Of a DNA stretch of 64,000 nucleotides, positions 52,658-64,000 are shown in pieces (within the stretch, counting starts at the first letter, position 1; each line of letters starts with the position of its first letter). Made by a program: the position numbers and the translations under genes. Location: NCBI GenBank assembly GCA_003168375.1, contig PMSI01000001.1, positions 1,612,001 through 1,676,000 of the forward strand, written 5' to 3'. The stretch is from Vulcanimicrobiota bacterium (GTDB lineage Bacteria > Vulcanimicrobiota > Vulcanimicrobiia > Vulcanimicrobiales > Vulcanimicrobiaceae). The notes under the pieces were generated by a model. The model was not told where the DNA came from. It saw only the letters and a program-made list of their open reading frames with translations, and did not search any database.

Positions 52658-53245
52658 ATGGACGGACAGCATTGGATGGCGAGCGCGATGCGGGCGGCGC
52701 GCGCGCAGCTCGACATCGCGACCCACAACCTCGCCAACGCCTCGACCGACGGATTCCGCCGGACCGCGGCGACGACGGCGCTCGCGCGCGACGGGCTCAC
52801 GGTCTTCGAGCGCGCGGTGCGCGAGCAGGGCGCGGTGCGCACCACCGGCCGCCGGTTCGATCTCGCGCTGCTCGGAGAGGGCGCGTTTCACGTCGGCGCG
52901 GCCGCGACGCGTGAGGGCGCGTTCACCCGCGACCGTGACGGCTTCCTGATCGACGACCGCGGCCGGAAACTGCGCGGCGCCTGCGGCGTCTTGCGCGTGT
53001 CCGCCGATGCGACGATCGCCTCCGACGGCAGCGTGCGCGACGGCGGCCGCGTCGTCGACCGGATACCGCTGCCGGCCGGGACGCGCGTCCTCGCGGGCGC
53101 GCTCGAGACGAGCACGGTGAACCCCATCGGCGAGACGCTGGCGATCCTCACCGCACAGCGCGCGTTCGAGAGCGCGCAGAAGACGCTGCTCGCGATCGAC
53201 GCGACGCGGGAAAAGGCTGCCAACGACGTGGTGCGCGTGCGATGA
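52658..53245 (+). CDS. flgF: Flagellar basal-body rod protein, FlgF-like
   Basis: 195 residues. N-terminal rod signature AQLDIATHNLANASTDGFRR and C-terminal LETSTVNPIGETLAILTAQRAFESAQKTLLAID, the two ends of the FlgE/F/G family, with a short middle domain. ATG at 52658 places the signature at the usual distance; the longer reading adds 34 basic, non-family residues. Overlaps flgG by ATGA. Proximal rod component. Confidence 0.85.
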   Translation: MDGQHWMASAMRAARAQLDIATHNLANASTDGFRRTAATTALARDGLTVFERAVREQGAVRTTGRRFDLALLGEGAFHVGAAATREGAFTRDRDGFLIDDRGRKLRGACGVLRVSADATIASDGSVRDGGRVVDRIPLPAGTRVLAGALETSTVNPIGETLAILTAQRAFESAQKTLLAIDATREKAANDVVRVR

Positions 53246-53934
53246 ACCGCGCGATGTTCGCCGCGGCGAGCGGTATGGCGGCGCAGCAGACGCAGCTCGA
53301 GATCGTCGCCGACAATCTCGCCAACGCCGACGTCGCGGGCTTCAAGGGCGCCGCGGCGACCTTCGCCGACGTCCGTGCCGGGGCGCTCGGACTCGGCACG
53401 ATCGGCGTGGGGCGGCACGCGGTCTTCGCGCAGGGCAAGCTGGTTCGCAGCGGCGGCGCGTTCGATCTCGCGATCGACGGGCCGGGCTTCTTCGCGGTCG
53501 AGCGCGGCAGCGCAAAGGCGTACACGCGCAACGGTGAGTTCGCGCGCGACGCCGACGGAACACTGCGCAACAGCGCGGGCTGGGCGCTCACCGGCGTGCG
53601 CATTCCGGCCGACGCGCTGAGCGCGCGGGTCGAGCGCGATGGCCGCGTGATCGTCGACTCGCCGGCACAGAAAGGGCGCACGATCGCGCAACTGCGGCTG
53701 GCCTCGTTCCCCTCGCCCGAAGCGCTGCGGCCGCTCGGCGCGACGCTGTTTGCGGCGACCGACGCGTCCGGGCGTGCGCGCACGTTCGCGCCGGGCGCGC
53801 GCGGTGGGCCGTCGATCGCGTTCGGGATGCTGGAGCGCTCGAACGTCTCGATCGTCGAGGCGATGATGCAGATCCTCGGCGCCCAGCGCGCCTACGAAGC
53901 GAACGCCAAGGGAGTGCAGGCACGGAATGCCTGA
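53242..53934 (+). CDS. flgG: Flagellar distal rod protein FlgG, possibly altered C-terminus
   Basis: 230 residues. N-terminal QLEIVADNLANADVAGFKG and C-terminal MLERSNVSIVEAMMQILGAQRAYEANAKGVQ are FlgG signatures. The protein stops only ~7 residues after AYEANAK, whereas FlgG normally continues ~15 residues (…ADEMLxxLxxL). The adjacent serine-recombinase element begins immediately downstream, so the 3' end may have been changed by integration. Confidence 0.85.
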   Translation: MNRAMFAAASGMAAQQTQLEIVADNLANADVAGFKGAAATFADVRAGALGLGTIGVGRHAVFAQGKLVRSGGAFDLAIDGPGFFAVERGSAKAYTRNGEFARDADGTLRNSAGWALTGVRIPADALSARVERDGRVIVDSPAQKGRTIAQLRLASFPSPEALRPLGATLFAATDASGRARTFAPGARGGPSIAFGMLERSNVSIVEAMMQILGAQRAYEANAKGVQARNA

Positions 53935-54019
53935 CCAGCTACGGAATCAACTGAATCGTCGTCGGGTCAGCGTCGGGCGTGGTGACCGCCGGCCGCGGAT
54001 GGCCGTCGGGACTTTGTAG
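53927..54019 (+). pseudogene. Remnant of the next flagellar ORF or shifted FlgG tail
   Basis: An ATG at 53927, overlapping the flgG stop, opens 30 codons beginning MPDQLRNQLNRRRVSVG before TAG at 54017. The first ten residues look like the normal helical FlgG end or the start of the next rod gene; later codons run into the recombinase 3' end on the other strand. Suggests the chromosomal gene is cut here by the element. Low confidence. Confidence 0.3.
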
Positions 54020-55451
54020 CGCTGACGCCTGGCCAGTCGAGCCCATACGTCGCCTTCTTGCCAGACCCACGGCCGCCGAGGGTGAGCCGCCGCAAGACCG
54101 GATGCGAACCCAGAGCTGCGCACAGCGCCCGATTCAGTATGTTGCGGTCCCGAGGAGCCATGGTCTCGTACATTTCACCGTATCGGGGCAGGAGCGCGGC
54201 CAGCGCGACGACATCGTGCGTCGGCGCGTCGAGTGACGCGAGTTCGCCAAGGACGGCCTCACGGGAGGCCCATAGAGCGCTCTCGTCGCGATCCAGTTCG
54301 GCGAGTGCGGTCCGCACCTGTCGAACCACGCCCGGGTTCTTGTCGAGCATCAAGTCGAGAGCTGCATCTCGTCGTTCCTTGAGCGCTGCCGCCTTCTGGT
54401 CGATGGCCGCAAGGCGATGCTCGAGCTTGCGCCGTTCAGGCCGCGCGACGGTGGCTGCCGTTGTCCATCGTTCGACTGCCCCCGGGGCGCTGATCTCTTC
54501 AGTGTACCTGGCCCACAGTGGGGCGACGCGCTCCGCGTATACGAAGACGCAATGCCCGCGCTCGGCGCGATTACGCCGATCGCAAATGATCCTTTCGCGC
54601 GGCACACCGTTGATCATGACGCCGGCGCTGTGCATGAGCTGTCCGCATTCGCAGCGGAAGACCCCCGTGAATTCCAATTCGTACTTGCGACGCGTCAGTC
54701 CGAAGCGGGCGCTATTCGTTGCGAGCAGGCTATTGAGAGCCGCCTGCGTCTGCACTTTTCGAACGCCGGCCTCGACGTACGCCGTATTTGACATCGCGAG
54801 CATGACGCCAGTTCGCGTCTGCCAGGCCGCGGGGTCGATCGAGCGCGACCAGCTGTTCAACTCGCCCATTGACTCGCCGGCCAGTAGACGCCGATCGACC
54901 TCCGCGACGATCCACGCCCGGTCTGGATCCGGAACCAGCTGGTCCCCGACCTTCACAAGGCCGAACGGGGGCTTGTTGGTCTTCGTGGCACCGCGCTCGC
55001 CTCGCGCTTCGTACGAACGGCGAATGGTCCGCGAAAGCTTGCGACGGAACGCTTCGGCCTGGGTGAATTCCGCGACGACGTCAGCCCAGTCGCGGTCGTC
55101 GTCAAGGTCGATCGGACGGTCACGCCGCCAGTCGAGTGCGATCAGCCCGACGTGGTGCCCTCGCAATTCCTCGAGTAGGTTTAGACCCTCGCGCAGGTTT
55201 CGCGTAAAGCGGTCCAACGTATCGACGACGATCGCGGCGGGCTTCGTGTTCGCGAGCTCGGCGATCATGCGCTCAAACTCGACGCGTCCTTCGACGGTAC
55301 CCGCGCTCGCCGCCTCGCGGTACGTACGCACGCGGGTCCACGTCGCGCCGTCAATGGCTCGCATGAACGCACGCTCTTGGTTCTGAAGCGATTGACCTTC
55401 GGTTTCCTGGCCGATCGTCGAGACCCGCGCGTAAGTGACGACTCGTATCAT
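53967..55451 (-). CDS. Large serine recombinase (integrase)
   Basis: 494 residues. Resolvase-type catalytic domain with S11 (VVTYARVSTIGQ) and VDTLDRFTRNLREGLNLLEEL, the recombinase domain (~165-280), a zinc ribbon with CECGQLMHSAG...CDRRNRAERGHC, and a coiled coil (~335-400) that controls directionality. Integrates DNA between short unlike att sites. Its 3' end is 32 bp from the flgG stop, the usual arrangement with attL beside int. Confidence 0.92.
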   Translation of the reverse strand: MIRVVTYARVSTIGQETEGQSLQNQERAFMRAIDGATWTRVRTYREAASAGTVEGRVEFERMIAELANTKPAAIVVDTLDRFTRNLREGLNLLEELRGHHVGLIALDWRRDRPIDLDDDRDWADVVAEFTQAEAFRRKLSRTIRRSYEARGERGATKTNKPPFGLVKVGDQLVPDPDRAWIVAEVDRRLLAGESMGELNSWSRSIDPAAWQTRTGVMLAMSNTAYVEAGVRKVQTQAALNSLLATNSARFGLTRRKYELEFTGVFRCECGQLMHSAGVMINGVPRERIICDRRNRAERGHCVFVYAERVAPLWARYTEEISAPGAVERWTTAATVARPERRKLEHRLAAIDQKAAALKERRDAALDLMLDKNPGVVRQVRTALAELDRDESALWASREAVLGELASLDAPTHDVVALAALLPRYGEMYETMAPRDRNILNRALCAALGSHPVLRRLTLGGRGSGKKATYGLDWPGVSATKSRRPSAAGGHHARR

Positions 55452-55515: not shown

Positions 55516-56289
55516 TCATCGCGCGCTCACCTTAGCAAGATGAGCAAACTCGAGAACTCGTCGCTGAATACGACGCAAAACGGACCGGTACTGCCGGGTA
55601 ACCTGAGGTCCGGGAATGCCAAGCTCCGCGACTATCTCCGCCGAGCTCAGGCCTTCATCTCTTAAGAGGAAAATTTGCTGGTCCGTAACCGTACACCGTT
55701 CGAGTATGCGTGCTAGCTCAGCTACGATTTCCGGATGCCCTGGATGAGATATCGATAGCCGCGTCGTGAGCTCGGCCCCCGTTAGGGCGCGCGCGTTATC
55801 CGCCAACGTCCCAGCGGTGTGATCGACTTTTTCGCGAAGCACGCCTTGTTCAGTCAGGGAAAGCTCGACTTCATCGTCGATGTCGATCCCCTTGCTCTTC
55901 AGGATTCTTTCGAACGCACCGAGTCGTGATTCGCTGAGCCACTTCTCCTCAATTAGCTCCATAACGTGAGCTTCGTGCCGCTCTTTCTCCGAACGCTCGT
56001 GGTTGAGCGCGTCCTTTAGACGACCGATCTCCTCGCGCTCCGGTGCGCTGTCGACTCCAAAGGCGAGATAGTCCGGCGAAACCCCGAGCGCGCGCGCGAT
56101 CCTCACTCCGTTCTGGAAAGTAGGCTGCTTCGAACCCCCGGTTTCAATCTGCCGCACCGCGGCCTCACCGAGTCCGACCTCGGCTCCAAGGGCGGTGCGC
56201 GTCTTCCGCCGCTGCAGGCGAAGCCACGCGATCCGATCGCCGATCGTCTGGCCGGCTCCCGGTGCACCTTCGGGCGCGTCGTCGCTCAT
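55516..56289 (-). CDS. Element repressor: XRE head, coiled coil, sigma-region-4-like tail
   Basis: 257 residues. N-terminal XRE HTH (~15-76: IGDRIAWLRLQRRKTRTALGAEVGLGEAAVRQIETG...ALGVSPDYLAFG), a helical coiled coil (~85-135), then a C-terminal second HTH (CTVTDQQIFLLRDEGLSSAEIVAELGIPGPQVTRQYRSVLRRI) resembling sigma-70 region 4/LuxR-type HTH. Start at ATG 56289, outside the operators; an upstream ATG at 56322 lies within an operator. Probably the lysogeny-type repressor acting on the divergent promoter. Confidence 0.82.
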   Translation of the reverse strand: MSDDAPEGAPGAGQTIGDRIAWLRLQRRKTRTALGAEVGLGEAAVRQIETGGSKQPTFQNGVRIARALGVSPDYLAFGVDSAPEREEIGRLKDALNHERSEKERHEAHVMELIEEKWLSESRLGAFERILKSKGIDIDDEVELSLTEQGVLREKVDHTAGTLADNARALTGAELTTRLSISHPGHPEIVAELARILERCTVTDQQIFLLRDEGLSSAEIVAELGIPGPQVTRQYRSVLRRIQRRVLEFAHLAKVSAR

Positions 56290-56294
56290 GAGAC

Positions 56295-56355
56295 CTATGG
56301 TAGCAACCTTAATGCGAACCATGACTTGACTCTATGGTGCGAACCATAGTACGAT
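56295..56355 (+). promoter_or_regulatory. Repressor operators overlapping the early promoter
   Basis: CTATGGTGCGAACCATAG (56332-56349) is a perfect 7-bp-arm palindrome lying exactly between a -35 TTGACT (56326-56331) and a -10 TACGAT (56350-56355; 18-bp spacer). The half sites CTATGGT (56295) and GCGAACCAT (56314) recur upstream as a second operator next to the repressor start. Classic occlusion of the early promoter plus autoregulation. Confidence 0.72.
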
Positions 56356-56839: not shown

Positions 56840-57028
56840 ATGAAAGCATCGCCGGACACGGATGGCCGCGATGCCCCAACGTCGGCGCTGAGACCACGTA
56901 AGGGTGGCCACACCAAGTCGTCCGGTCCTCCAGCCATCGGATGGCGCTGCGGCCTCGTACGCCCCAATTCTCGGCTGATTCTGCCCGTATCCGCGGGAGC
57001 GCAACGCGAAATAGGCGGGCGCCGGTGA
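56840..57028 (+). CDS. Small basic early protein, unknown
   Basis: 62 residues, rich in Arg, Lys, Gly, Pro (DAPTSALRPRKGGHTKSSG). It starts 6 bp after the preceding stop and its TGA overlaps the GTG of the next gene, which argues for real translation. No family recognised. Confidence 0.45.
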   Translation: MKASPDTDGRDAPTSALRPRKGGHTKSSGPPAIGWRCGLVRPNSRLILPVSAGAQREIGGRR

Positions 57029-57813
57029 CGAGTGACTCTCAGGGCGCACTCGTCGAGCTGTTTCGCGTGATGGAGCGACTAACTGGGAAGTGGCCGACAA
57101 ACGCAACCGTCTTCGTGACGGCGCGCGCGCTCGGCTTTCGGTTCAAGGACGCCGATGGAAAGCGGTTGCTCTCGAAGTTCCGCCCCAGCGGGGCCCCCAC
57201 CGCGCCCTCACAGCGCACCAATGACGCGCCTGAGCCGCCCCTACCTCGCACCAACGGCGCTGGGGCGAACACGCCCGAATCCGGGGGCGGGGCCCCCGCC
57301 GCGCCCTCACAGCGCACCAATGACGCGCCTGAGCCGCCCCTGCCTCGCACCAACGGGGCTGGGGCTACACACGCGCGCGGTAAAGGTACTTCTAGTCCTG
57401 ATCCTGATTCGCTCTCCGGCGCGAGCGCGCGCGAGAGAGCCGAACCCCATGGGTTGCCGTCGAGTCCGGCCTCGCCGACGCGCGACCTGATCGCCTGGTT
57501 CTTGACGGCCGGCATCGAGGCTGGTGCCATCAAAGGGCACTTTGCAATACTTCAACGCAGCCCAAAGTCCGCCGAAATCGTCGCAGCGGAAGCTCTACTA
57601 GCGCACTGGAGCCGTGCGGACATCGAGGCCATGGCGCATCGACTCTTCGCGCGCAAGCTGAATAAGCGACATCCACGCGGCCCGGTTCTGTCGACGCTGT
57701 CGTTAGCGCTGCTCGCGGAATGGTGGGACTCGCTCGAACCTGATGTGCCTGTGCCAATCGTCGACGGCGAAAACCTCGACGACTACACCCGTCCCGGACT
57801 CCTGAGCGCGTGA
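57025..57813 (+). CDS. Probable replication protein (phage O/DnaD-like) with tandem repeat linker
   Basis: 262 residues from GTG 57025. N-terminal winged-helix-like region (SQGALVELFRVMERLTGKWPTNATVFVTARALGFRF), a disordered linker made of two ~25-residue copies (APSQRTNDAPEPPLPRTNGAGA), then a helical C-terminal domain (DLIAWFLTAGIEAGAIKGHFAILQRSP...AHRLFARKLNKRHPRGPV). Architecture and position before a DnaC-like loader match phage replication initiators; assignment is by context. The linker repeat is also a DNA repeat. Confidence 0.62.
   Translation: MTSDSQGALVELFRVMERLTGKWPTNATVFVTARALGFRFKDADGKRLLSKFRPSGAPTAPSQRTNDAPEPPLPRTNGAGANTPESGGGAPAAPSQRTNDAPEPPLPRTNGAGATHARGKGTSSPDPDSLSGASARERAEPHGLPSSPASPTRDLIAWFLTAGIEAGAIKGHFAILQRSPKSAEIVAAEALLAHWSRADIEAMAHRLFARKLNKRHPRGPVLSTLSLALLAEWWDSLEPDVPVPIVDGENLDDYTRPGLLSA
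57191..57365 (+). repeat. Two 76-bp direct repeats, 99 bp apart
   Basis: 57191-57266 and 57290-57365 are nearly identical (about four mismatches), encoding the APSQRTNDAPEPPLPRTNGAG units of the replication-type protein. Phage origins often lie inside such genes, so these could be initiator-binding repeats; equally a recent duplication. Confidence 0.7.
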
Positions 57814-58670
57814 CGGTCGAGCTGAAGCCCTGCCCGCGCTGTAACGCGCCAACGCTGCCGATCGCGGTGCAGGCCGGCGGACTGGGGCAGCTGTGGATCC
57901 GGGCGATGTGCTCGCCCTGCGTCCTCGCCGACGCGCAGGAGCGGGCAGCGAAGAGCCACGCAGAGCTCGCCTCGATGGTGCACGAGCGCTGCGAGATTCC
58001 GTTCGAGTTCGCTGGCGTGACGATCGCTTCACATCCGAGCCCGGGCGCGCGCGAAGTCGGCGCGGCATACGTCGCGACGCTTCCCGACCCGCTCGGCGAT
58101 ATGCTCGCGCTGCGCGAGTGGAGCGGCGGCACCGATCAGCGGCTGCACCTTGCCACGCTGCAGCGCGAGGCGATGCGCGGCCATCGCGGGATCGGGATCT
58201 TCGGTGCCCAGGGACGAGGCAAGACGGGGCTGTACGCCGGCATCGCTCGCGAGTTGGAGCGCCGCGGTGTGTCGAGCGTCATGGCCAACGTCGCCCTGCT
58301 GCTCGAGGCGATGCGCGAATGCCGCGCCGACGGCGCTGGCCAGATGCGTTTGATGCGGCCGTTACGCGACACCGCGTACCTGGTGCTCGACGACATCGAC
58401 AAGGTCTCGAATGCGACGTTCGGCGGCAAACCGACGTCCGACTCGCAAAGAAGCTTCTACGCGTTACACGCGCTGCTTGAGTACCGGATGGAGCATCGGC
58501 TCCCGATCGGCGTCACGGCAAACCGCTCGCTACAGCAGCTCAAGACCGAAGTGTTCGCCTCGTTCGAGGCCGACGGTGCAGCCTTCTGCGACCGGTTCCT
58601 CAAGACGACGGGAAGCTGGTACGAGTTGACGGCGTCGCGATCGCTGCGTGCGCTGATCGGTGCCGCATGA
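57810..58670 (+). CDS. DnaC/IstB-like helicase loader ATPase
   Basis: 286 residues. N-terminal zinc ribbon (CPRC at 8-11 and CSPC at 34-37), then an AAA+ domain with Walker A GAQGRGKT, Walker B YLVLDDID and sensor VTANRS. Loads the replicative helicase at the element's origin. GTGA overlap with the replication-type gene. Confidence 0.85.
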   Translation: MTVELKPCPRCNAPTLPIAVQAGGLGQLWIRAMCSPCVLADAQERAAKSHAELASMVHERCEIPFEFAGVTIASHPSPGAREVGAAYVATLPDPLGDMLALREWSGGTDQRLHLATLQREAMRGHRGIGIFGAQGRGKTGLYAGIARELERRGVSSVMANVALLLEAMRECRADGAGQMRLMRPLRDTAYLVLDDIDKVSNATFGGKPTSDSQRSFYALHALLEYRMEHRLPIGVTANRSLQQLKTEVFASFEADGAAFCDRFLKTTGSWYELTASRSLRALIGAA

Positions 58671-58777
58671 GCAGCGTCACCAGGATCCTGACCGCGAGCA
58701 ACGCCGAAGGCCAAGGAGCGGCGCGCAGCGACGCGACTACATCCGTCGTCTTCGAGGCGGTGAGCAATGCAAGCTAA
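58667..58777 (+). CDS. 36-residue ORF between loader and ATPase genes
   Basis: ATG at 58667 overlaps the loader stop (ATGA) and TAA at 58775 overlaps the next gene's start by 11 bp, the same stitching as the other early genes. Ser/Thr/Ala-rich (SSVTRILTASNAEGQGAARS). May be a coupling peptide or nothing. Confidence 0.4.
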   Translation: MSSVTRILTASNAEGQGAARSDATTSVVFEAVSNAS

Positions 58778-60611
58778 CCGCGTACGCCTCTCCGCCGAGC
58801 TGTGTGAGATCACGCCGGAGATATTCACGACCGCCAGCGCGATCGTCGGTGTGCGTGGCAGCGGCAAGACGAACGACGGCGTACTGCTCGCCGAGGAGGC
58901 GATCCGCTTCGGCGTCCCGCCCGTCATTATCGACCCGACCTCGGCCTGGTGGGGGCTGAAGTCGTCGCCCGACGGCAAGTCGGCGGGCCTGCCCGTCTAC
59001 ATCTTCGGCGGCGAACGCGGCGACGTTCCGCTCGAACCGACGTCCGGCCCGATCATCGCGCGGTTCGTCGTCGAGGAGCGCGTGCCGGTGATCCTCGACG
59101 TGTCGGACCTCACGAAGGGGAAGCAGCGCCGCTTCGTCGGCGAGTTCTGCACCACGCTGTACGACCTCAAGAACCGCCGTCGCGATCCGCTGTTCCTCAT
59201 CATCGACGAGGTCCCGCGCTTCTGCCCTCAGCAGCTGCAGAAAGACCCCGACCTGTTGCAGTGCGTCGGCGCCGTCGAAGACATCGTCGCGCTCGGACGC
59301 AGCCGCGGCCTCGGCTGCGCGATCATCGGCCAGCGATCGGCGACGATCAACAACAACGTCCTCACGCAGGCCGACAACCTGTTCGCGATGCGCTCGGTGG
59401 GCACGGCGGACCGAAAGGCGATCGACGCATGGGTCGTCGAGGCGCAGGGCGATCAGCAGCAGCGTGACGAGATGATTCGCCATCTCGCGGCGCTCCCGCA
59501 GGGCGAGGGCTACTTCTGGTCGCCGGCGATCTTTGGTGTCTTCCGCCGGGTGAAGTTCGCGGCGCGCAGCACGTTCGATTCCTCGCGGACCCCGCGAGTC
59601 GGCGAGAAGCGAGTCGAGCCGAAGGTCTTCGCGTCGGTCGACCTCGACAAGCTGCGCGGCGAGATAGCGGCCACCGTCGAGCGCGCCAAAGCCGACGACC
59701 CGAAAGCGCTGCGCGCGACGATCGCGGACCTGCAAAAGAAGCTGGCCGTGAAGGGCGCGGCCGATCCTGCCGAGGTGATGCAGCTGCGCCGGGACATCGC
59801 CGAGGCGCGGCTCGCGATCGTGGAGCTTGAAGCCCGGCCGGTCGAGCGCGTCGAGGTGCCCGTCGTCGGCGAGAAGGCGATCGCGGCTCTCCGCGAGATC
59901 GTCGAGTCGGTTGCCCTCGCCGTCGACGCGCTCCAAGGTGCATCCGCCCAGCTTCCGGCCGTCGTCGCGCCGATCGCCGATGCGTTGCGCGCTGCGCGAG
60001 CACCGATTCCCGTGCGCCCTGAGCCCGCGGTGAGGCCGCAGCGTCCGGTGCTGAGTTCTGTACCAGCGAAGCCTGCGACGGCTCCACGGGCCGCTAATCC
60101 GTCGGACGACTCGCTCGGCGGCGGGGCGACGAAAGTCCTCGTCGCGCTCGCGCGCGTTCTGGGCGGGCAGGCGACGCGCGATCAACTTGCGCTTCTTTCC
60201 GGCTACACGAACACAGGGGGATTCCGCAACCTGCTCTCGGAGCTGCGCGCCGCTGCTGTGATCGAGGACGTGGATGGCGCTAGGAGTGTCGCCATAACCG
60301 CACACGGTCAGGCGCTACTCGTCGGTCATCGCGTCGAACTACACCAGCACGAGGAGCTGGTCGATCTCTGGCGCCCGAAGCTCGACGGCGGAGCCACGAA
60401 GCTGTTCGATGCGATGCGCGAACTGCACGCGGCGGGTGAGGAGTGGGTGACGCGCGATCGGTTAGCGGCGAAGACCGGCTACGCGAACGCGGGCGGCTTC
60501 CGCAACCTCCTCAGCGACCTACGGAAACCCGGCCTGATCGACGAGCAGAAGATCGGCAGCGAGCTCACACTGCGGCTGCATCCGACGCTCTACGCTGAGG
60601 GAGTGCGGTGA
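58767..60611 (+). CDS. HerA/FtsK-like ATPase with duplicated winged-helix tail
   Basis: 614 residues. Walker A GVRGSGKT (28-35), IIDPTSAW strand, Walker B PLFLIIDEVP (D147/E148) and GRSRGLGCAIIGQRSATINNNVL sensor mark the HerA/DUF87 branch. Residues ~290-400 form helices and coiled coil, then a Pro/Ala linker. Two copies of a winged-helix-like unit follow: GGATKVLVALARV...SGYTNTGGFRNLLSEL (~452-510) and GGATKLFDAMREL...TGYANAGGFRNLLSDL (~540-595). A DNA-translocating motor; roles from replication to genome packaging are possible. Confidence 0.82.
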   Translation: MQANRVRLSAELCEITPEIFTTASAIVGVRGSGKTNDGVLLAEEAIRFGVPPVIIDPTSAWWGLKSSPDGKSAGLPVYIFGGERGDVPLEPTSGPIIARFVVEERVPVILDVSDLTKGKQRRFVGEFCTTLYDLKNRRRDPLFLIIDEVPRFCPQQLQKDPDLLQCVGAVEDIVALGRSRGLGCAIIGQRSATINNNVLTQADNLFAMRSVGTADRKAIDAWVVEAQGDQQQRDEMIRHLAALPQGEGYFWSPAIFGVFRRVKFAARSTFDSSRTPRVGEKRVEPKVFASVDLDKLRGEIAATVERAKADDPKALRATIADLQKKLAVKGAADPAEVMQLRRDIAEARLAIVELEARPVERVEVPVVGEKAIAALREIVESVALAVDALQGASAQLPAVVAPIADALRAARAPIPVRPEPAVRPQRPVLSSVPAKPATAPRAANPSDDSLGGGATKVLVALARVLGGQATRDQLALLSGYTNTGGFRNLLSELRAAAVIEDVDGARSVAITAHGQALLVGHRVELHQHEELVDLWRPKLDGGATKLFDAMRELHAAGEEWVTRDRLAAKTGYANAGGFRNLLSDLRKPGLIDEQKIGSELTLRLHPTLYAEGVR

Positions 60612-60868
60612 TGGCTCACGACATCGAGGCCGGTCATTGACGGCGACGGCAAGCCCCCGGTCATCCTTGCGCGCCTACTTTCGCGAAAGGATGATCGCAA
60701 GGACGGCGCAAGTGCGAGGCTGCTCGAGGGAGACCTCTGTACTAGAGAAGCGAGGCGTCGAAGTCGATGCGAGCGCGCCCTCGAAATTGCGTCGCGTTCG
60801 GCCGGAAAACGCAATGACGAAAGTTTACCCGGCGAAAGTCTACTGCTCTCTCCACGGCTTGTTCCGGT

Positions 60869-60945
60869 GGTTGCGCAACTTCCGCAACTTCCGATTTGGA
60901 ACGTCGAACGGAAGGTTCGGAAGGACCGATGGAAGTTGCGCAACC
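60869..60945. repeat. Long inverted repeat with nested arms
   Basis: GGTTGCGCAACTTCC (60869-60883) and GGAAGTTGCGCAACC (60931-60945) are perfect 15-bp arms. Between them AACTTCCG/CGGAAGGTT can pair again. Each outer arm also contains the palindrome TTGCGCAA. Confidence 0.8.
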
Positions 60946-61073
60946 AGACAATGGGCTCCGGCGGAGACTTCACCAATAGAGAAGGCGGCCGTCCAAGTCG
61001 CACCGGGACCGCCCCCGGAAATGACTGAGACGAGACGCGAAACGGAAGGTCCGCGGAAGTTGCGCGCAGGTTC

Positions 61074-61140
61074 GTTCACGGTCACGGAGCCTGGCACATA
61101 GCGGCGTGACTTCGGCCGACGTGACCGTGACCGAATGAAC
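61074..61140. repeat. Inverted repeat around GGTCACGG
   Basis: GTTCACGGTCACGG (61074-61087) faces CCGTGACCGAATGAAC (61125-61140): 8-bp perfect core GGTCACGG/CCGTGACC plus a flanking GTTC/GAAC pair. A further GTGACCGTGACCG direct repeat lies in the right arm. Confidence 0.65.
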
Positions 61141-61520: not shown

Positions 61521-61802
61521 GTGCAGATAAGCGCGTTGTTGGACAAGAAAGAGCCGATCGAAGACGGGCTAGTTCGCCCATATCCCGAGGGAGCGCGCTT
61601 CCTCGCGTGCTCGCGAGCGCATATCATGCGGCTGATGGCGTCGGGGCGGTTGCCGTACTGCACGGTCGGCGTCAACGGCGGAGAACGCCGCATTCGGATC
61701 TCGGCGCTCCGTGAATTCGTCGACCGCAACACAGTTTGCTTGTCCGGCGATTCGGCGCCCGCGCATGTCGAACGTGCGCCGATTGCGACGGTGTCGCAGT
61801 GA
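61521..61802 (+). CDS. Excisionase-type (helix_turn_helix_17) DNA-binding protein
   Basis: 93 residues, GTG start. Core YPEGARFLACSRAHIMRLMASGRLPYCTVGVNGGERRIRISALREFVD is the MerR/Xis-like winged HTH found in excisionases and phage regulators. May act as recombination directionality factor or early-to-late regulator. Overlaps the next gene by GTGA. Confidence 0.78.
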   Translation: MQISALLDKKEPIEDGLVRPYPEGARFLACSRAHIMRLMASGRLPYCTVGVNGGERRIRISALREFVDRNTVCLSGDSAPAHVERAPIATVSQ

Positions 61803-63045: not shown

Positions 63046-63391
63046 GGACGAACTCGCCGCCGAATTCGACCGGACGGCTGACGAGGTGCGTACCCTCGGC
63101 GAGAACCTCGCGCAATCGAATGCGCTCTTCCGTGCCTCTCTCACCGAGCTTACCGTGTTTCGCGAGCAAATCGAGGCGGTTCTGCCGAACGTACAAGCCG
63201 TCGCCGAACGGGCCGCTGACGCGGTTACGCGTGGGCGCTCGCTTTTGAACGACACTGCGAAAGCTCTTACCGCGAGCGTTGAAATACTCGCTGGCTACGA
63301 AAGCTACGTCGTCGCACTGAAGGAGAAAGAGCTCACCCTGCGCGGCGAGGCGATGGCGTTGCGCCGACGCGAAGAGAGTGGTCCGAGCTGA
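63038..63391 (+). CDS. Coiled-coil protein, unknown
   Basis: 117 residues from ATG 63038 (MDRDELAAEFDRTADEV). Continuous helix prediction with repeating hydrophobics (LTVFREQIEAVLPNVQAVAERAADAV, LTASVEILAGYESYVVALKEKEL). Stop overlaps the next ATG by one base (TGATG). Confidence 0.6.
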   Translation: MDRDELAAEFDRTADEVRTLGENLAQSNALFRASLTELTVFREQIEAVLPNVQAVAERAADAVTRGRSLLNDTAKALTASVEILAGYESYVVALKEKELTLRGEAMALRRREESGPS

Positions 63392-64000
63392 TGCCCTTTG
63401 ATTTTTTGGTCGGCTTTGGAATTGAGTATTTCGACGGCGGGGCGCCGGCGAAACTCGCGGATCTGGCCCGTAAGGCGGGAACCCTCCATCCGCTGCTTCA
63501 GGCTCTGGCTGTCGACGTCAAGGGCGTTTCTTCGGGGTTCTGGGATCTCAGCAAAGCCGCGATGGCGAGCGGTGCGGCCGTCGGTGGATTCGATGCAACG
63601 CTGCGCGCCAACGCAGCGACGTCGCGCGCGGCTGAATCCGGCGCGCGCGGTCTGTCCTTCGCGTACATGAGCGTCGCTGCTAGCGCGACCGCTGCTGCGG
63701 GCGCCGTGGCGCGGTTAAATGCAATGAGCGCGGGTGGAGCCGCCGGATTCGGCGCCGGCGCCGCGTTCGCCGCGCCGGCTGGAGCCGGTCGCGGCTGGCA
63801 GAATGTCGGTGCTGGCCTCACGCGTCAAATGGCGCTCCCGTCGGCGCCGACGATGAAGTGGGCTGGCGCTTCACCTCTCGCAACTGGCTCCGGCTGGGCT
63901 AGCCCATGGGCTTCACGGCTCATGGGGCCGCCGGGCGCGGGTAGCGGGGGGACGATTTACGGTACCCCTGCATTCGGCCGTGGCGCCGGCGGCGGCTTCG
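63391..64000 (+). CDS. Ala/Gly-rich protein, partial at window end
   Basis: 203 codons visible without a stop. Begins MPFDFLVGFGIEYFDGGAPA, then LADLARKAGTLHPLLQALAVDVKGVSSGFWDLSKAA and a long Ala/Gly/Ser-rich stretch (ASATAAAGAVARLNAMSAGG, GPPGAGSGGT). Such composition occurs in phage tail-length or minor virion proteins and in adhesins; function not assignable. Opens with a TGATG overlap, so it belongs to the same operon. Confidence 0.6.
   Translation, partial: MPFDFLVGFGIEYFDGGAPAKLADLARKAGTLHPLLQALAVDVKGVSSGFWDLSKAAMASGAAVGGFDATLRANAATSRAAESGARGLSFAYMSVAASATAAAGAVARLNAMSAGGAAGFGAGAAFAAPAGAGRGWQNVGAGLTRQMALPSAPTMKWAGASPLATGSGWASPWASRLMGPPGAGSGGTIYGTPAFGRGAGGGF

Follow-up and report, generated by a model that had tools for sequence, protein, structure and literature searches.

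Known roles of HerA superfamily proteins comprise end resection, defence, and packaging. HerA of the HerA-NurA system and the antiphage HerA proteins (SIR2-HerA, HerA-DUF4297) are the closest described counterparts of the motor presented here, while the B204/A32 packaging ATPases and the coupling proteins TrwB and TcpA share its core fold at lower structural similarity. By analogy of function, it may also be likened to FtsK/SpoIIIE, which combines a double-stranded DNA pump with a C-terminal DNA-reading winged helix, the FtsK gamma winged helix reading KOPS (PMC2680272). Here, we describe a motor gene encoded in a 64,000-nucleotide stretch of a Vulcanimicrobiota genome (the window, whose numbering is used throughout) and compare it with these systems and with its own relatives.

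A HerA-type core followed by two winged-helix heads

The motor gene (58767-60611, plus strand; GC3 0.85) encodes a 614-aa protein which the initial annotation had assigned to the HerA/FtsK superfamily, with two homologous winged-helix units in its tail, and both assignments are supported here. For the protein alone, the Pfam models DUF87 (16.6 bits) and HerA_C (16.2 bits) were both sub-threshold, but the signal was clear across the family (DUF87 in 44/46 members, HerA_C in 38/46), and a family profile matched solved HerA proteins with E-values of 6e-28 to 4e-19. In a structure model based on 62 sequences (mean pLDDT 89.6 for the full protein), the motor core (residues 1-281; 58767..59609, +) aligned with Sulfolobus HerA 4d2i at a VIA Z of 28.5 (2.9 Å over 248 residues) and with antiphage HerA proteins at Z 24-29 (29.0 over ~250 residues), with lower scores for the packaging ATPase B204 (19.9), TrwB (19.1), TcpA (17.6), and FtsK (17.2). 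The core displays a RecA-like fold, the Walker A lysine (GVRGSGKT, residues 28-35; 58848-58871, +), the Walker B glutamate (residues 142-148; 59190-59210, +), and the QR motif, all features of HerA/DUF87 proteins; G33, K34, E148, and R190 were found in 112/112 alignment rows, and Q189 in 111. By its core fold, the protein belongs to the HerA superfamily.

It is nevertheless not HerA of a HerA-NurA pair. The ~115-residue N-terminal HAS-barrel region is missing, as residue 1 of the model aligns with HerA residue 116 in the structure alignment and Walker A starts at residue 28 (the family median is 32 residues before Walker A). In addition, NurA (PF09376) was not found in the element's own genome, the NCBIfam HerA-NurA equivalog scored 25.5 bits against a cut-off of 970, and the motor adds a coiled coil and two winged-helix heads. 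Similarly, it does not qualify as a recognised antiphage HerA system: the corresponding NCBIfam models scored 16.4 and 12.7 bits against cut-offs of 850 and 800, PADLOC matches (HerA models, 2e-14; mad8, 1.7e-8) span, like those of NCBIfam, only part of the core, the tail is different, and no effector gene was recognised alongside, the neighbours being a DnaC-like loader and unassigned ORFs; the two genes upstream had no PADLOC match.

A disordered linker and a helical segment separate the core from the heads. The helical, coiled-coil part (residues 293-410; 59643..59996, +), delineated from the 62-sequence model and a DNA comparison of relatives, includes a conserved ERAKADDP stretch. The two tail units are homologous, with a local BLOSUM62 score of 116 compared to a mean of 25.7 and a maximum of 53 for shuffled sequences, and each was modelled as a winged helix (pLDDT 91.5 when the tail was modelled separately). 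Head 1 (residues 452-510; 60120..60296, +), for which pLDDT exceeded 90 over most of its length, is MarR-like (VIA Z 12.3, 1.6-2.1 Å) and carries its recognition helix at residues 484-495 (60216-60251, +); head 2 (residues 541-604; 60387..60578, +), with a recognition helix at residues 576-586 (60492-60524, +), matched in VIA the winged helices of ORC2 (Z 10.6) and TFE (Z 10.4). Overall, the heads resemble MarR-family proteins within 1.4-2.1 Å across ~70 residues, although here a motor is followed by two of them in a single polypeptide, and their reading surfaces are identical. FtsK gamma and ScpB were not retained as specific kin of the tail, Foldseek matches to ScpB and MukE being weak; gamma-domain entries were absent among the tail structure matches listed, which leaves a gamma-like relationship conceivable. 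Compared to FtsK/SpoIIIE, the core is closer to HerA, each subunit has a pair of heads where FtsK/SpoIIIE has a single one, these heads are hypervariable (see below), and no membrane part was seen.

An integrated element with exact ends

The gene had been placed in an early operon of an integrative element, which our data support, and we could delimit this element precisely. It spans 21,165 bp inserted in flgG and is bounded by an 8-bp duplication, GTGCAGGC, at 53914..53921 (left attachment core) and at 75079-75086 (right attachment core, with window numbering continued past 64000 for the right half of the element). The empty site was found in four related genomes (G004, G006, G007, and G008), where flgG continues directly into the sequence at 75079. 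A large serine integrase lies at the left end (53967..55451, −; Resolvase domain, 9.9e-20; PHROG 95 integrase, 1e-41), followed by a repressor-like HTH_3 protein (55516..56322, −; 5.5e-10; PHROG 4 repressor, 9e-12), a DnaC-like helicase loader that ends 97 bp ahead of the motor gene (57810..58670, +; PHROG 50, 1.1e-19), an excisionase-like HTH_17 protein (61521..61802, +; 2.2e-8), and a tape-measure protein which starts in the window (63391..64000, +, continuing to 65844; PhageMin_Tail, 3.4e-9; PHROG 28, 1.1e-10). Besides the tape measure, no phage structural gene was identified: among the ORFs searched, including those beyond 64000 where a check for capsid genes had been suggested, no terminase, portal, or capsid gene was recognised, nor any relaxase or conjugation gene. 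The element is probably a defective or satellite phage.

Several other features of the element were recorded. Through the insertion in the 3' end of flgG (53242-53934, and 75079), the flagellar rod protein FlgG loses its conserved C-terminal residues, the native end ...VQAADEMLRIANNLHRG becoming ...VQARNA; the flagellum is probably impaired while the element is integrated, and excision would restore flgG. A 290-aa protein without family match is encoded at 56941-57813, with the repressor on one side and the DnaC-like loader on the other; this position suggests a replication initiator. In the right half, a second, small serine recombinase of the resolvase/invertase type (68314-69003; L003:8314-9003) adjoins a minus-strand gene block without known families, and this region is possibly a second element.

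Relatives on phages and plasmids

Single-sequence searches found almost nothing, and a three-sequence profile was needed to reach relatives of the motor. From viral contigs, mostly environmental fragments, this profile retrieved 217 relatives, of which 80 were kept; another 32 came from the genomes of bacteria belonging to many phyla. Overall, tailed-phage contigs, prophages, and large plasmids harbour more than 150 relatives; the degenerate-pattern searches that were also used give no prevalence. In its own phylum, the family was detected in only 2/149 genomes, hence the motor gene is accessory. Plasmid matches comprised 60 records, nine of them nearly full length, mostly on large actinobacterial plasmids, some of which carry a separate FtsK-type protein nearby. 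A description of the family was not found in the open-access literature searched, which omits most subscription papers.

These contexts bear on two of the roles that could be envisioned from the core fold. A role as a genome packaging ATPase of the A32/B204 type, raised in the initial annotation, would be in line with the fold match to B204 and with a match of the protein to PHROG 2666 “terminase large subunit” (4e-10), but the motor is longer than these ATPases, has a reading tail, and coexists with terminase. In the contig of the closest relative (L088), terminase and portal genes are located a few kb downstream of the motor gene, and the named phage MW202482, in which a family member is annotated as “hera helicase”, encodes terminase, portal, and capsid genes in the same genome. 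One terminase model detected this gene in 9/31 relative contigs, which are fragments so that absence means little, and a GpA-like terminase was recognised by eye from the sequence in seven further loci. As the family also occurs on plasmids, which have no capsid, and no evidence for a double-jelly-roll capsid was obtained, packaging is extremely unlikely as a general role. A conjugative coupling protein, for which we also looked, is disfavoured by context: no relaxase or conjugation gene was recognised among the element ORFs searched, 50/60 plasmid carriers are non-mobilizable, and no membership in such a family was found.

The genes next to the motor gene in relatives include ParB-like, RusA, HNH, and DNA methyltransferase genes, along with RecT-like and SbcC-like genes labelled by eye from sequence. 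These neighbourhoods vary widely and thus do not imply a single pathway. ParB-like genes were seen nearby in 11 of ~110 loci, a neighbour count that carries no background rate. Together with the presence of the family on large plasmids, this would fit a partition motor acting from a centromere-like binding site to position copies of the element or to untangle them, its heads varying through plasmid-type incompatibility. However, most carriers have no adjacent ParB, integrated elements need no partition, and carriers share no centromere-like repeat, so that we regard partition as distinctly unlikely; it is also a subset of the addressed translocase proposed below.

Some relatives showed further particularities. 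The gene most often found directly upstream of the HerA gene encodes DUF5131, of unknown function (7/73, with the same count for PHROG 2045; e.g., L046:8694-10001 and L104:8293-9753). In two phage contigs, AAAGGGTGRC direct repeats, partly 22 bp apart, precede the HerA gene (L031:6854-7032 and L057:8648-8722); they are iteron-like and possibly mark a replication origin. In the MW202482 protein (L002:20547-22415), the coiled coil is separated from the heads by additional sequence that resembles, by eye, a MazG-type domain; its gene is closely followed by a KTSC-domain gene.

Recognition surfaces are matched within proteins and variable between them

Next, we evaluated the diversity of the heads across the family. 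Heads were cut from 108 proteins and stacked, and the agreement at each column was compared within and between proteins. Six recognition-helix columns (36, 37, 38, 40, 41, and 44) agreed between the two heads of the same protein in 94, 100, 94, 95, 94, and 88% of cases, respectively, while the same columns were only 12-50% identical between proteins. This lock was absent over most of the remaining head, the signal being limited to the recognition surface and a few first-helix residues. All six residues were equal in both heads in 83/108 proteins, with 87 distinct sets, whereas random pairing of heads (permutation over the 108 proteins) yielded 1.3 full matches on average (maximum 6). When the set was thinned to proteins with cores <55% identical, 22/31 remained fully matched, with 30 distinct sets. 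Since the six columns had been picked on the first set, we then tested them on fresh proteins, including plasmid copies: 38/51 were fully matched and 48/51 agreed at ≥5 of the 6 positions, with 44 distinct six-residue sets, compared to an average of 1.1 for random pairs. Copies from plasmids obey the same rule. In a test based on whole heads, a protein's own partner head was the best match in only 3/108 cases, which we attribute to close relatives in the set, and a search for other proteins sharing the heads in the same loci returned only two weak matches.

In MarR-type winged helices, the recognition helix faces the DNA. The locked residues are spaced i, i+1, i+2, i+4, i+5, and i+8, while the lock is weaker or missing at other positions of that helix. 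Because the locked positions follow the DNA-facing side of the MarR-fold helix, the simplest reading is that both heads read the same half-site, and the variation between proteins suggests that the motor of each element has its own private DNA address. A DNA-reading tail had been anticipated for this protein, and the locked helices strengthen this view far beyond the evidence initially available. Recent gene conversion was considered as a source of matched heads and rejected: codon agreement at identical residues was 0.52 in the helix compared to 0.46 expected, and 0.46 compared to 0.43 elsewhere, with expectations computed from each gene's own codon use and possible exceptions in L056 and L021. 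Codons being little more alike than by chance, selection on the protein, and not copying, keeps the two surfaces equal, and copying of one head onto the other accounts for a small part at most.

Hypervariable heads could also reflect an arms race, in which they read the DNA of a rival phage or plasmid, for whose destruction or expulsion the motor would be used. This main rival fits the variability almost as well as the reading of own DNA, and an antiphage HerA is indeed among the solved HerA relatives, along with the PADLOC matches reported above. Yet these matches and those of NCBIfam cover only part of the core, far under the NCBIfam cut-offs; the gene is located in early replication and recombination regions; and its neighbours in this element included no recognised SIR2, DUF4297, NurA, or other dedicated effector, NurA being absent from the genome altogether. 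We therefore consider a rejection role unlikely.

Cores and tails are exchanged

Recognition identity between proteins was ~0.3 (0.34) even when core identity reached 0.8-0.99, and cores 85-95% identical were found with unrelated heads. At the DNA level, the genes of several relatives (e.g., L020, L049, L062, L063, L030, L081, and L065) were 75-87% identical from the start codon to approximately nt 925-975, where homology stops at the ERAKADDP stretch; upstream, tail, and downstream DNA of these loci displayed essentially no similarity, a few short patches aside. Such a distribution of DNA homology argues for recombination rather than slow divergence. This pattern points to motors that pass between otherwise unrelated phages, and to a reader that would change as one block, with both heads together.

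A putative addressed translocase

Taken together, the HerA-type fold, the paired heads, recognition helices that match within a protein yet vary strongly across the family, the swapping of cores and tails between phages, and the co-occurrence with terminase lead us to favour, on balance, a HerA-fold double-stranded DNA translocase that would carry its own DNA address and be loaded on the element's DNA for early genome processing. Its subunits are expected to assemble as a hexameric ring, in which the two heads of each subunit would bind DNA by reading two copies of one short, element-specific half-site. This reading would load the motor onto the element's own DNA, after which the ring would translocate double-stranded DNA, and pumping may serve replication, recombination, or segregation, beside the helicase loader. 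Such an address would restrict the motor to the genome that encodes it.

More tentatively, the family could represent a new class of addressed motors on phages and plasmids, in which a HerA-type core cassette is exchanged between unrelated elements while each element's own matched, hypervariable heads mark its DNA as with a private key. By analogy, and with similar reserve, such a motor identity could be comparable to Rep-ori or ParB-parS specificity. If this holds true, mobile elements would carry DNA pumps with a programmable address, i.e., one core with interchangeable two-headed readers, and the HerA superfamily would gain a sequence-reading branch. With well over 100 matched pairs of readers, the relatives would then be a natural catalogue and, as every protein displays its reading surface in duplicate, a resource for studying the winged-helix recognition code across the family. 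The means by which mobile elements distinguish their own DNA from foreign DNA in early genome processing would also become testable.

A candidate site downstream of the motor gene

The initial annotation had pointed to inverted repeats ~260 bp downstream of the motor gene as a possible target of the tail. The repeat itself is real: TGGTTGCGCAACTTCC ... GGAAGTTGCGCAACCA (60868..60946) starts 257 bp past the stop codon of the motor gene, and its arms (60868-60883 and 60931-60946) are complementary at 16/16 positions. It is composed of GGAAGTTGCG units, of which a repeat scan identified four copies in ~190 bp (60874..61065), two on the minus and two on the plus strand, and each arm contains the palindrome GTTGCGCAAC. 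Across the 4.43-Mb genome, CGGAAGTTGCG occurs 7 times, including 3 times in the cluster downstream of the motor gene. The GGAAGTTGCG inverted repeat is a reasonable candidate site for the heads, and also for the replication initiator or another regulator.

Conservation of target repeats in related elements, on which the initial annotation had made its proposal depend, was not observed, as the 15-bp arm of the inverted repeat was found in no relative. This absence weighs less than it might seem, because with different heads from one element to the next no common site would be expected. Broader scans of the relatives were also negative: clustered repeated 10-mers were not enriched near the gene (0.052 per kb near, 0.047 far), neither words over-represented across whole loci nor words shared by proteins with equal recognition helices exceeded random groups once the HerA gene was removed, and the 150 bp on either side of the gene contained palindromes and direct repeats no more often than those of other genes. 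A CGGCTACAAG signal was traced to the Gly-Tyr-Lys codons of the heads and discarded as a site.

That motif searches and flank scans yielded no DNA site would be consistent with the matched helices forming a protein–protein surface, either between heads or towards a repeated partner, instead of reading DNA. Such a surface would, however, have to coincide with the helix side that faces DNA in MarR-type winged helices, where the lock is concentrated, and we deem it very unlikely compared to DNA reading by both heads.

Two additional repeats were noted in the element. A second inverted repeat, TTCGTTCACGGTCACG / CGTGACCGTGACCGAA (15/16; 61071-61135), lies in the same ~900-bp non-coding stretch as the candidate site, and GCGGACGGAC is present in four copies near the right end of the element (74734-75014).
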